64,000 nt of DNA from positions 1-64,000 of the IMG/VR virus record IMGVR_UViG_3300045886_000052; one strand, 5' to 3'. The stretch is from a virus. The number at the start of each line of letters is the position of its first letter. Within the stretch, counting starts at the first letter, position 1. Shown piece after piece: positions 9,649 through 45,052 of this stretch. The position numbers and the translations under genes were made by a program. The notes below the pieces were generated by a model that worked only from the letters and a program-made list of their open reading frames with translations, ran no database searches and was not told where the DNA came from.

Positions 9649-9744
9649 GTGACCGAACGAACCGCAAAACTGATCGCCATCGTAATCGCGCTGCTGATTA
9701 TCCTGATCGGCCTCGCGCTGTTGATCGCGGCGCCGGCGGGGTAG
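9649..9744 (+). CDS. 31-residue single-pass membrane peptide
   Basis: A GTG-started frame 4 bases after the last tail gene. After a short polar start (MTERTAK) nearly all residues are hydrophobic (LIAIVIALLIILIGLALLI), giving one transmembrane helix. It is the final gene of the rightward late operon. It could be a pinholin-like or accessory lysis peptide, but there is no direct evidence; it is too short to assign by homology. Confidence 0.5.
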   Translation: MTERTAKLIAIVIALLIILIGLALLIAAPAG

Positions 9745-9763
9745 CGGTTAAGCGGATACGTTT

Positions 9764-17260: not shown

Positions 17261-18091
17261 TTATTGCGCTTTCAGTTTAGATGCCAGTTCGCGCCCCTTC
17301 GTCGGATGCGCGTACAGCCCCGTCGTTGCGATGCTGGCATGCCCCACGATCTCGCTCACGTCGGCTAATGGCGCGTTCTCGGCCAGCAGGTGTGAGACGA
17401 AGGCATGTCGGAATTGATGGGGATGAGCGCCTTCAACGCCTGCCGCCTTTCCTGCCGCCTTCACGATCTTCCATGCGTTCTGCGGTGTGAAAGGGAAGGG
17501 GTGATCCTTGTCCCCGGCATTGCCCCGCATCGCTATCAAGTCCCGCCACAGTTCAGCCGACAAATACACCGTCCGTCTTTTCCCGCCCTTGCCTAAAATA
17601 TGCGCCTCGCCGCCGTCTTCCATTGGTCGCAGATCGCACCAGCGCAAGCCCAAAACCTCGCTGATTCGCGCGCCGGTCAGGTACAGAAACTTCAACAGCG
17701 CATGGTGTAGGGGATCGGCTGCCGTGGCTGCAATAATGGCGCGAATCTGTTCCGGCGTAAGCAATGCGCCGTGGTCGACGGAGCGGTCCATCTTCGCGCG
17801 CTCGATCCGCGCCAAGTTGATCGCCGTTACCTCTCGGTTGTTCAGGAAGCGGTAGAAACTGCACACGCTGGCCAGCTTTCGCGCGCGGGTTTTCTCTGCG
17901 CCGTATTCGTCCGCCAGGAACGATTGATAATCCATTATGTCGGCGGTGATGATCTGATCGAACGGCTTGCGTGTATGGGCCAGGAATGCCTTGATGTCGG
18001 CGCGATAGGCGATTGCGGTGTGCTGGCTTCGCCGTTTGCCGGTCGGTTTCAGCCATTCCGCGATCCAGAAATCAACATCTTCGATGTTCAT
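17261..18091 (-). CDS. int: Tyrosine recombinase/integrase
   Basis: 276 residues with a SAM-like N-terminal DNA-binding half and a complete catalytic set: Arg142 (GARISEVLGL), Lys168 (ILGKGGKRR), His225 and Arg228 (HPHQFRHAF), His251 (GHASIATTG) and nucleophile Tyr260 (GLYAH). Length and spacing are those of XerC/D-type and simple phage integrases. It sits inside the small-gene array, not beside the switch region, and its 3' end carries the J4 repeat. It could integrate the phage, resolve dimers or act on the array repeats. Confidence 0.9.
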   Translation of the reverse strand: MNIEDVDFWIAEWLKPTGKRRSQHTAIAYRADIKAFLAHTRKPFDQIITADIMDYQSFLADEYGAEKTRARKLASVCSFYRFLNNREVTAINLARIERAKMDRSVDHGALLTPEQIRAIIAATAADPLHHALLKFLYLTGARISEVLGLRWCDLRPMEDGGEAHILGKGGKRRTVYLSAELWRDLIAMRGNAGDKDHPFPFTPQNAWKIVKAAGKAAGVEGAHPHQFRHAFVSHLLAENAPLADVSEIVGHASIATTGLYAHPTKGRELASKLKAQ

Positions 18092-26307: not shown

Positions 26308-27864
26308 TCAATCCCGATCAGAGTCGGACTTAGCCAGAACCGTATAGGTCGTCGTGACGACTAATTTAGAACTGGATAAAAAGCCGGCCGTCCTGAGGCT
26401 CCACCACTTGCCGTTCGCGATTACCTCGATCCGCAGTTCTTCCAAATCGAGCCGCTTTCGCTCGAACGTCAACTCGCCGGCTGTCTCAGCCGCAAGCCGC
26501 GCGCAGGTCTCGTAAACCTGCTCGACGCCCACGCGCCCGCCCTGCTGCTCGCGGAGATCGCGCTCAATCTCGGACGCTTCCAGGCGCAGGCGTTCGCGCT
26601 CGGCTTCGATCTCACCAATCTCTTTTTCAATGAGCGCTGCCACGCGCCCCTCGGCTTTGCGCAATCGTTTTACCAATCGCTCTTGCTCAGCGCCGCGCTG
26701 CTCGATCTGGCTACGAACGATACCGAACCGCGACGTCAATTGCTCGACGATTCCGACCGTGCGCGCCAGGTCGAGCGCTTCGATGAGGCTGTCAGGATTG
26801 TTGACGAGCCACACGAAGCGCTCCCAGACCTCGCGCTCGATCCGGTCGGCGCGCACTGACTTTCCGCCGCAGCGCGTATATCCGTTGTGGTGGCGCTGAA
26901 ATTCCGAGGCGCAGCGGTAGTAGTAAAGACCGTGCTGTATGGCGACGTACATCCGCGCGCCGCAGCTCGCGCAGAAGATCAAGCCCCGCAGCAGCGCCGG
27001 TCTGCTCTGGTTGCGCAGCGCCTCGCCGCGGTTCGCGTCGAGCCGTTCCTGCGCTTTGTCCCAAACCTCGGCGTCCACCAATGGCGGAAAGATCCCGTCC
27101 GGCATTCGCAGTAGCTCGCCGCCGTGTCTGTACGCCCACGCCTCGCCCTTGTAGGCGGGATCGCGCAGCAACACGCGCAATGTTCCGGGATGCCACTGCC
27201 CCTTGCATTCACCGCGAGATGTGAAGCTCGTCGGGACGCCCGAGCGGTTGAGATCCTTACAGATCGTTCGCAGCCCCTGCCCGGCGCAGACTTCACGGAA
27301 AATACGGCGCACGATTTCCCCTTGGGCGTCGTCTATCTCGGCAATCCCCTGCTCGCGGTTTTTCCGGTATCCGAATTTGTCCCGGCCGCCGCCCCAGATT
27401 TTTCCCTCCATCACCTTCTTGCGTTTGCCGCGCATTGTACGGTCGAGGATCTTGCCGATCTCACCGGCGGCTTCGTGTCCGGCGACGAGCGCCATGATCT
27501 TTCCGGCAATCGTCGTGAGGTCGAGCGGATTTCTTATGAATCGGACTTCGGTATTGAAGTGGCGAAATTCAACGAGCAGGTAGAAAATATCTTCCGCCTC
27601 TTCGCCGCGGATCAATCGATCCTGCGCGTAGCAATAGACGATCTGCCGCTCGCTCTTGTGCTGCTCGAGCGCGGCGCGCAATTGGCTCAGCTCCGGTATG
27701 GCGCGCAGGTCTCGCCCCGAAAACTGCACTTCGTACTCGCGGTCGGGCGTGACGCTTACGTCATCGGCTGCCGCGGCTTCACGGCAGGCGTCAAGCTGGC
27801 TTTTGATCGAATATTTTTCCTCGTCGTAGAGGTTGGACTCCCGCGTCCAGATGTAGCCGATCAT
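26308..27864 (-). CDS. Large serine recombinase (integrase)
   Basis: 518 residues. The N-terminal resolvase domain has the nucleophile Ser10 (IWTRESN), the SIKSQ segment and QDRLIRG; a recombinase domain follows; the zinc ribbon is CASCGARM with later Cys near residues 300-345; then a long coiled coil (residues about 375-460). This is the layout of phage large serine integrases. Located next to the divergent switch, it is the likelier main integrase. A second, tyrosine-type recombinase exists at 17261-18091. Confidence 0.9.
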   Translation of the reverse strand: MIGYIWTRESNLYDEEKYSIKSQLDACREAAAADDVSVTPDREYEVQFSGRDLRAIPELSQLRAALEQHKSERQIVYCYAQDRLIRGEEAEDIFYLLVEFRHFNTEVRFIRNPLDLTTIAGKIMALVAGHEAAGEIGKILDRTMRGKRKKVMEGKIWGGGRDKFGYRKNREQGIAEIDDAQGEIVRRIFREVCAGQGLRTICKDLNRSGVPTSFTSRGECKGQWHPGTLRVLLRDPAYKGEAWAYRHGGELLRMPDGIFPPLVDAEVWDKAQERLDANRGEALRNQSRPALLRGLIFCASCGARMYVAIQHGLYYYRCASEFQRHHNGYTRCGGKSVRADRIEREVWERFVWLVNNPDSLIEALDLARTVGIVEQLTSRFGIVRSQIEQRGAEQERLVKRLRKAEGRVAALIEKEIGEIEAERERLRLEASEIERDLREQQGGRVGVEQVYETCARLAAETAGELTFERKRLDLEELRIEVIANGKWWSLRTAGFLSSSKLVVTTTYTVLAKSDSDRD

Positions 27865-43488: not shown

Positions 43489-44100
43489 ATGCTTAAAACG
43501 GTTGAAGTGACTTTGGTCGGGAAAACCCCATTGCTACTAAGTTCTCCGGCGACAATGCTGATGGATACAGACGCAGAGCCGGCAGCGACGAAGAAGGCAA
43601 AGAAACTTACGCGCGAACAGGAAGCGGAATTGCGAGCCTATCGCAACGACAAGGGGCATTTAGTGTTCCCGCTGATGGGGATTCGCAAAAATCTGATTCT
43701 CGGCTGCGCCGGCTACAAACTGCCAAAGAAGCGAGAGGGTATCAGTTCATACCTGATGCACATTCGCCCAGTTTCAATCAACGGCTCAACAGAGGAATTC
43801 ACGCCGATCCTGAACGGCAAAGGCAAGCCGATCACCAACTACATTATTGACACGCGGCGGGCGGTCAATCGCAATTCAAAACCGCCGGCGGGGATCATTG
43901 TCCATAGGCCACGGGTTGACGAATGGCAGATCGTCGCGCGGTTCTTCTATGACCCGGAAGCGATCCCGGTTGATGACCCGGTTGCGGTGTTGATGCAGAT
44001 GTGGAGCAACGGCGGAAACCGCGTGGGCATTGGCAGTTTCAGGCCGCAGTGTCAGGGGTATTTCGGGTTATTCGACGTGAAAGAGATCATTGAAGTTTAG
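43489..44100 (+). CDS. Phage protein of the TPLL family (possibly RAMP-like)
   Basis: 203 residues behind AAAGGAGAC. Starts VEVTLVGKTPLLLSSP; later segments are HLVFPLMGIRKNLILGCAG and GGNRVGIGSFRPQCQGYFG. This layout (TPLL start, basic middle, Gly-rich IGSFRP end) belongs to a phage family without settled function; the Gly-rich end recalls single-domain RAMP/Cas7-like folds, which is only a guess. Confidence 0.45.
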   Translation: MLKTVEVTLVGKTPLLLSSPATMLMDTDAEPAATKKAKKLTREQEAELRAYRNDKGHLVFPLMGIRKNLILGCAGYKLPKKREGISSYLMHIRPVSINGSTEEFTPILNGKGKPITNYIIDTRRAVNRNSKPPAGIIVHRPRVDEWQIVARFFYDPEAIPVDDPVAVLMQMWSNGGNRVGIGSFRPQCQGYFGLFDVKEIIEV

Positions 44101-44162
44101 ATTCATCGCGTTGCTACGTGGCGCGAGGCCACGCCTCGCATCGCGGCGCTTCGCTCTGTGAT

Positions 44163-44223
44163 GCATAGCGCAATCTCAACAATTGCCGGTGAGGGCTTAT
44201 GGCCCGATCCGGGAGTCGTTGAG
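44163..44223 (+). ncRNA. Structured RNA element, tandem copy 1
   Basis: After GCATAGCGCAAT, CTCAAC...TTGCCGG (44175-44189) pairs with CCGGGAGTCGTTGAG (44209-44223), with an inner GGGC/GCCC stem. Conserved TGAG and AT bases flank the inner stem in both copies. Confidence 0.55.
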
Positions 44224-44285
44224 GCTCCGAACGCGGCGAGGCGGCGCAACGCGCGCCGAGGTTTTGCCTTGTGACGCGGAGCACA

Positions 44286-44350
44286 GCATAGAGCAATCTT
44301 CAACGATTGCCGGTGAGAAGTCGTCAGGCTTCAATCCGGGAGTTGTTGAA
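44286..44350 (+). ncRNA. Structured RNA element, tandem copy 2
   Basis: Same fold as copy 1: TTCAAC...TTGCCGG (44299-44313) pairs with CCGGGAGTTGTTGAA (44336-44350), with an inner GAAG/CTTC stem. Compared with copy 1 the C-G pair becomes T-A and the inner stem changes on both sides, keeping pairing. It ends 15 bases before the ATG at 44366. Confidence 0.6.
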
Positions 44351-44365
44351 ACAGAAAGGAGAATT

Positions 44366-45052
44366 ATGATCCAGGAAGTCGAAGTCGCAAACTTGATTTT
44401 AGATTACAACATTTATCCGCGAACCGCCGTTCAGGATGTCCACGTTAGATCGATGATCGAAGCGGGCGAGTCGGGCGTCACGTTTCCGCCTATTCTCGTT
44501 GATCACAAATCAATGCGAATCGTTGATGGTTTTCATCGCTACGCTCGCGCAATCAAGATCGGCCAGAAAACGATTCAAGCCGAATTGCGCACATTCAAGA
44601 ATGAGCAGGAAATCTTTGAGGCGGCCGTAGCGGCGAACGCCAACCACGGGAGACCCTACGCCCCTTTTGACCGGGCGCGGATTATTTCCATCGGCCTGCA
44701 ACTGAAAGTATCAAAGCAGAAACTTGCCGCCGCGCTCAGCATGCCGGTTAGCCGAGTGGAAGAAATCCGCCTCAGTTTCGCAAAGGTTGGCAGGGATGAT
44801 GAGCCGACAGAGCCGCTGAAGATGACGATTCGCAATCAGTTTCAGGGCAAGCGACTGACGCACGCACAGGCGCAGGCGCAGCGCAAGCTCGGCGGACAGC
44901 AGGCCACGTTCTACGCGAATCAACTCGTGATTCTGATCGAGAATGATCTATTGAACGTGAAGAACCCGAATATTCTGGCGACGATGCATAAACTGGCATC
45001 GTTGATTCTGGATCGAGTTCCGATGCCGGAGACAATGAAAGACGCGGCTTAA
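44366..45052 (+). CDS. ParB-like protein
   Basis: 228 residues behind AAAGGAG. IVDGFHRYARAI is the ParB/Srx DGxHR motif, followed by a helix-turn-helix region (SKQKLAAALSMPVSRVEEIR). Related to the N-terminal domain of the fusion at 35334-36497 but without a methyltransferase part. The mRNA leader holds two structured elements. Confidence 0.7.
   Translation: MIQEVEVANLILDYNIYPRTAVQDVHVRSMIEAGESGVTFPPILVDHKSMRIVDGFHRYARAIKIGQKTIQAELRTFKNEQEIFEAAVAANANHGRPYAPFDRARIISIGLQLKVSKQKLAAALSMPVSRVEEIRLSFAKVGRDDEPTEPLKMTIRNQFQGKRLTHAQAQAQRKLGGQQATFYANQLVILIENDLLNVKNPNILATMHKLASLILDRVPMPETMKDAA

Follow-up and report, generated by a model that had tools for sequence, protein, structure and literature searches.

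The two tandem hairpins that precede a ParB-like gene in the IMG/VR phage record IMGVR_UViG_3300045886_000052 very probably belong to a divergent VIPR system, in which each would form the invariant 3' tail of a guide RNA (vrRNA), the two vrRNAs lying in tandem. The stretch analysed here, hereafter called the window, comprises positions 1-64,000 of this record. VIPR systems, which were not described until 2026 (PMC13142463), are used by phages to silence rival DNA and have been proposed as an ancestor of CRISPR RAMP proteins. As outlined there, a system consists of a Vipr protein, vrRNAs with 9-16 YNNGG repeats and an invariant structured 3' tail, a vipr-accessory (vap) gene and intergenic arrays. 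Apart from the GGY letters, this anatomy matches the locus, and because "a related consensus" of the repeat is also allowed (PMC13142463), the locus with its NNNGY repeats was filed as a VIPR variant.

Layout of the locus

As compiled in Table 1, the interval between the two genes is filled by repeats, tail, repeats and tail, followed by the Shine-Dalgarno stretch of the ParB-like gene. A scan for promoters and terminators gave nothing informative. Elsewhere the record codes for a tyrosine integrase (phrog_1; 17261-18091, - strand) and a large integrase of the serine type (phrog_95, also matching a DNA invertase; 26308-27864, - strand), which suggests a temperate phage with two recombinases.

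Table 1 Features of the putative VIPR locus in the window
Feature	Position	Strand	Properties and evidence
vipr	43489..44100	+	RAMP-like protein, 203 aa, C-terminal glycine-rich loop GGNRVGIGSFRPQCQGYFG; phrog_4652 E=3.5e-9
Candidate vrRNA1 repeat (guide) tract	44105..44169	+	13 pentamers NNNGY; period-5 score
Candidate vrRNA1 3' tail	44165..44223	+	ATAGC-GCAAT + hairpin copy 1; fold, covariation
Candidate vrRNA2 repeat (guide) tract	44233..44292	+	~10-12 pentamers; period-5 score
Candidate vrRNA2 3' tail	44288..44350	+	ATAGA-GCAAT + hairpin copy 2; fold, covariation
Shine-Dalgarno AAAGGAG of ParB-like gene	44355..44361	+	sequence
ParB-like gene, probable vap	44366..45052	+	228 aa; phrog_1033 ParB-like E=3.2e-7

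Structure and covariation of the hairpins

The hairpin copies occupy positions 44175-44223 and 44299-44350, with a start-to-start distance of 124 nt for their 5' parts and 127 nt for their 3' parts. In copy 1 the outer stem P1 (CTCAAC 44175-80/GTTGAG 44218-23) encloses CCGG/CCGG (44186-89/44209-12), a 3x3 internal loop TGA/GAT and the inner stem GGGC/GCCC (44193-96/44202-05). Copy 2 consists of P1 (TTCAAC 44299-304/GTTGAA 44345-50), the same CCGG/CCGG (44310-13/44336-39), a loop TGA/AAT and the inner stem GAAG/CTTC, which can be extended to 6 bp (GAAGTC/GGCTTC, 44317-22/44327-32). A search of the window with the exact core pattern gives two matches, compared to none in 100 dinucleotide shuffles. 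Folding of the + strand yielded -26.8 kcal/mol for copy 1 and -27.9 kcal/mol for copy 2 (z = -5.0 and -5.5), and none of 200 shuffles gave an equally good fold.

When the two copies are aligned, 97% of the pair cells form and 4 of the 18 pairs are changed on both sides. The outermost pair of P1 turns from C-G in copy 1 to U-A in copy 2, the inner stem is replaced wholesale, and an extra exchange in P1 converts A.C (44181/44217) to G.U (44305/44344). Moving the 3' partner by 1-3 columns lowered the pairing to 25-61%. Column shuffling reached the observed pairing value in 102 of 500 cases, a control which is not decisive for an alignment of two sequences, whereas the slide control is clear. The preliminary description had reported two hairpin copies, two-sided stem changes and, from these, a selected RNA structure; coordinates and core pattern, paired changes with their slide control, and the folding scores of the + strand bear out all three; the A.C to G.U exchange had not been listed. 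Its own objection that the copies might be translated was checked as well: as their offset of 124 is no multiple of 3, they stand in different reading frames, and they lie between two genes. The invariable, structured 3' tail of the published systems is thus found here as a kept core with paired changes.

The same hairpins were found on only one other IMG/VR contig, which belongs to the same phage and carries both flanking genes with 100% identity. Scans of IMG/VR and of 84,980 species, each represented by a single genome, with the exact and the loop-only pattern revealed no further copy outside this contig; the leftover matches were chance matches without coherent pairing. Likewise, BLAST of the interval against phages (INPHARED) and plasmids (PLSDB) gave no match. 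As the tail sequence is, within the sensitivity of these patterns and BLAST searches, absent from other phages, the covariation support comes from the two copies.

The conserved block begins 5' of the hairpins, at CATAG(C/A)GCAATC. Within it, GCAAT (44170-74 and 44293-97) is complementary to ATTGC (44182-86 in copy 1, 44306-10 in copy 2) inside the P1 loop, so that judging from the letters a possible a-b-a'-b' pseudoknot in the order GCAAT-CTCAAC-A-ATTGC..GTTGAG would form. Both sides of this helix are invariant in the two copies and thus show no covariation.

Rod-like hairpins of ~20 bp between genes are also what one would find at intercistronic mRNA-processing elements (RNase III or stability sites). 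Such elements leave the conserved CATAG.GCAATC block, the period-5 tracts and the linkage of tracts to Vipr genes described below unexplained, and we consider this reading very unlikely, while processing at the tail could occur alongside a vrRNA role. Furthermore, the arms of P1 resemble the R boxes (YYYAAC/GTTRRR) of integron attC sites, clusters of which are known from phages (PMC9892861): six of seven R-box letters match in both copies, and the spacers measure 5 nt. The full boxes RYYYAAC/GTTRRRY, however, fail at the outer letter in both copies, extrahelical base asymmetry is missing from the copies, and in the integrase of the phage the profile segment typical of IntI is absent. With a covariance model built on six attC sites of plasmid integrons and one of phage TJE1 (seven in total) the copies scored 11.3 and 10.6 bits on the wrong strand and 7.1 on the + strand, compared to 14-15 for chance matches in the window and 28-70 for 14 known or plausible sites in control loci, all on their own strand. 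Scoring below the window background, the hairpins were rejected as attC sites, a reading with next to no probability left.

Period-5 repeat tracts

Each hairpin copy is preceded by a pentamer tract which the preliminary description had omitted. Tract 1 consists of the units ATCGC, GTTGC, TACGT, GGCGC, GAGGC, CACGC, CTCGC, ATCGC, GGCGC, TTCGC, TCTGT, GATGC and ATAGC, the last of which may be part of the tail, and tract 2 of GCGGC, GAGGC, GGCGC, AACGC, GCGCC, GAGGT, TTTGC, CTTGT, GACGC, GGAGC, ACAGC and ATAGA. The period of 5 was taken from the arrays of relatives and not from the window. With this period tract 1 scores 13/14 in phase (shuffle mean 5.4, maximum 10 in 5000 shuffles), and other periods score much lower. 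Tract 2 is ragged and reaches 10/14, a value matched by a fraction of 0.0006 of the shuffles. With 13 and ~10-12 units, both beyond shuffles, the tracts fall into the published range of 9-16 pentamers.

In both tracts the repeat reads NNNGY and thus departs from the alternation of GGY with hypervariable NN. GY itself is kept (G in 24/26 and Y in 25/26 units), and the position of the usual first G of GGY is free, being A in 13, C in 48, G in 17 and T in 22% of the 23 units with GY. In the same 23 units the three free letters are composed like codons (first letter 48% G, second 70% A/T, third 48% C), a pattern that would fit a third letter taken from the wobble position left unread by canonical systems. 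This suggests, but in so few units does not establish, that the third letter is also derived from the target. Concatenated, the free letters of tract 1 give ATCGTTTACGGCGAGCACCTCATCGGCTTCTCTGAT with the open frame IVYGEHLIGFSD. That NNNGY is a true triplet code, each unit reading three consecutive bases of an uninterrupted ~36-nt target, appears to us a tentative and rather unlikely reading.

Loci with relaxed repeats do not form one clade in the Vipr tree. Another locus (L124, 1390-1620) carries an NN-AGY array with 85% A at the G position of GGY beside a Vipr gene. In three other loci (L143 1990-2400, L217 460-1000 and L163 5690-6020) vrRNA-like arrays are punctuated by short linkers which are constant within each phage, GGCGTTCA, GGCTACCTCA and GGCACCGCA; these linkers may represent compact tails, with the vrRNAs chained or overlapping. 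Near-perfect repeats of a single pentamer, CTTGC or GCCGT (L202 6660-6750; L209 ~9715-9756, + strand), fit the array pattern as well; a search for a Vipr gene in these two locus sequences found none, and they are probably plain microsatellites.

The Vipr gene and its linkage to arrays and ParB-like genes

According to profile and model comparison, the gene upstream of the tracts belongs to the Vipr family and has a predicted RAMP-like fold. A family profile (A7) of 60 members with the window protein as first row matched one chain among solved structures, PDB 36pp_D ("SUSP1 Vipr protein", E=9.7e-41). The window protein by itself matches this chain weakly (E=0.08), so that the link is carried by the family profile. 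All 60 aligned members match phrog_4652, whose function is not annotated. The AlphaFold model of the 203-aa protein (pLDDT 90) has its top Foldseek matches in Csm3 and type III and VII Cas7 proteins (E 4e-7 to 1e-4). Profile A7 and RAMP fold together thus place the protein with the ancestral RAMP family that characterizes VIPR, on a long branch of the Vipr tree. In phage SUSP1 the family profile finds a gene at E=9.2e-45 which adjoins a GGYNN array with tail. A TRAP-like ring protein as partner of the period-5 arrays was dropped upon the Vipr match.

The linkage was examined starting from the arrays: a scan of IMG/VR whose query consisted of eight GGCNN units and included no gene returned at least 80 loci. 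In 60 of the 80 listed loci the profile of the 203-aa family found a Vipr gene, which makes array plus profile a recipe for retrieving such genes; the other 20 do not prove its absence from the phage, as the locus sequences are short (2-15 kb). Among the listed loci the nearest array lies at a median of 90 nt from the Vipr gene and on the same strand in 58/60 cases, and unrelated control loci (0.52 Mb) gave 0 profile matches. Furthermore, the pair of Vipr and ParB-like gene was found in the window and in seven non-duplicate contigs (L044, L091, L092, L094, L096, L111/L112/L122 and L137). Most of these relatives carry sense-strand GGCNN arrays before, between and after the two genes; in L096 and L092 the two genes nearly abut. 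The accessory gene of VIPR adjoins vipr, and the paired ParB-like gene is a probable vap gene.

These relatives also bear on the regulatory reading of the preliminary description, according to which the hairpins recall riboswitches or protein-binding leaders. As an mRNA leader they would bind a metabolite or the ParB-like protein and thereby control ParB-like translation. The covariation of the copies and a stable hairpin whose end lies 4 nt from the Shine-Dalgarno stretch would suit such a leader. Against it, Rfam returned no family at the gathering threshold and no meaningful match at E<=10, a period-5 tract precedes each copy, and in the relatives arrays also flank the gene pair on both outer sides or the intergenic gap is almost missing. 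The leader is therefore highly improbable; the hairpins appear as 3' halves of larger units, with the period-5 tracts as 5' halves. The position before a start codon holds, and reflects the order vipr, vrRNAs, vap. Similarly, the RNA probably binds protein, as had been suggested, and the predicted partner is the upstream Vipr instead of the ParB-like protein. Vipr family membership, the linkage of arrays to Vipr genes and the conserved gene pair together make vipr, vrRNA1, vrRNA2 and vap the probable order of the locus.

Proposed mode of action

If the locus works as a VIPR system, the phage would produce a small Vipr protein with RAMP fold and two vrRNAs of ~120 nt, encoded on the same strand immediately 3' of vipr. 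Each would comprise a pentamer tract, in which variable letters alternate with the fixed GY, and, 3' of it, the structured tail. On the model of SUSP1, several Vipr subunits would coat the repeat tract, the tail would cap or anchor the Vipr-RNA complex, and the variable letters would pair with the bases of a competing mobile element's double-stranded DNA, whereby transcription at the targeted DNA would be blocked. The product of the ParB-like gene would act as accessory protein.

In the published systems, the NN letters pair with double-stranded DNA and one base is skipped (PMC13142463). As the locus reduces the supposedly fixed GGY to GY, it can test whether the protein itself imposes this skip or whether the fixed G brings it about; here, three target bases per repeat may be read instead of two plus a skip. 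Searches with both the NN-skip and the contiguous-triplet rule found no target in the collected loci or in 398 + 294 genomes. These 692 genomes come from two phyla and were drawn without knowing the host, so that this null result says little. BLAST of INPHARED with the contiguous query gave no target either. Neither the window itself nor its sister contig contains a tract-1 target at >=8/12 units, and neither is among the eight top-ranking tract-2 matches, which extend down to 7/11 units.

Comparison with known systems

With the crRNAs of Class 1 CRISPR systems and their Cas7/Csm3 proteins the locus shares the RAMP fold and an RNA in which a variable portion is joined to a constant structured handle. 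It differs in that no CRISPR array was seen at the locus and that the pairing would be broken every few bases by fixed letters.

The SUSP1 clade (type II; PDB 36pp; PMC13142463) resembles the locus in the Vipr-family RAMP gene, the phage location, the accessory gene and the period-5 tracts of 9-16 units with a structured 3' tail. The vrRNA tails of this clade are described with a pseudoknot (PMC13142463). In a close SUSP1 relative (L258) the tail GTAG-TTA-GTCTCA-G-CTAC..TGAGAC can be read as an a-b-a'-b' pseudoknot, and the possible one in the window has the same order. In contrast to this clade, the window has NNNGY instead of GGYNN repeats, an unrelated tail sequence, a ParB-like accessory gene and both vrRNAs between vipr and accessory gene.

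The nearest Vipr protein in the tree (33% identity, support 93/87) is that of L094 (3300032069_000195), a grouping which is uncertain owing to long branches. L094 shares the relaxed NNNGY repeat, and two of its tracts end in GCATAGCACA(GC), comparable to GCATAGCGCA in the window; it differs in that the tract between its genes is not followed by such a hairpin tail. The locus L044 (IMGVR_UViG_3300037264_001924) encodes homologous Vipr (30%) and ParB-like (30%) proteins and carries, in the interval that holds two hairpins in the window, three covarying hairpin tails between arrays. Its repeats are canonical GGCNN (85% G), and its tails have another sequence, in which the loop GGGTCA is fixed and the stems are largely replaced pair by pair; 10 of 13 pairs still pair via two-sided changes in at least one sequence. 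The preservation of the tail structure by paired changes is thus seen in two phages, that of the window and that of L044.
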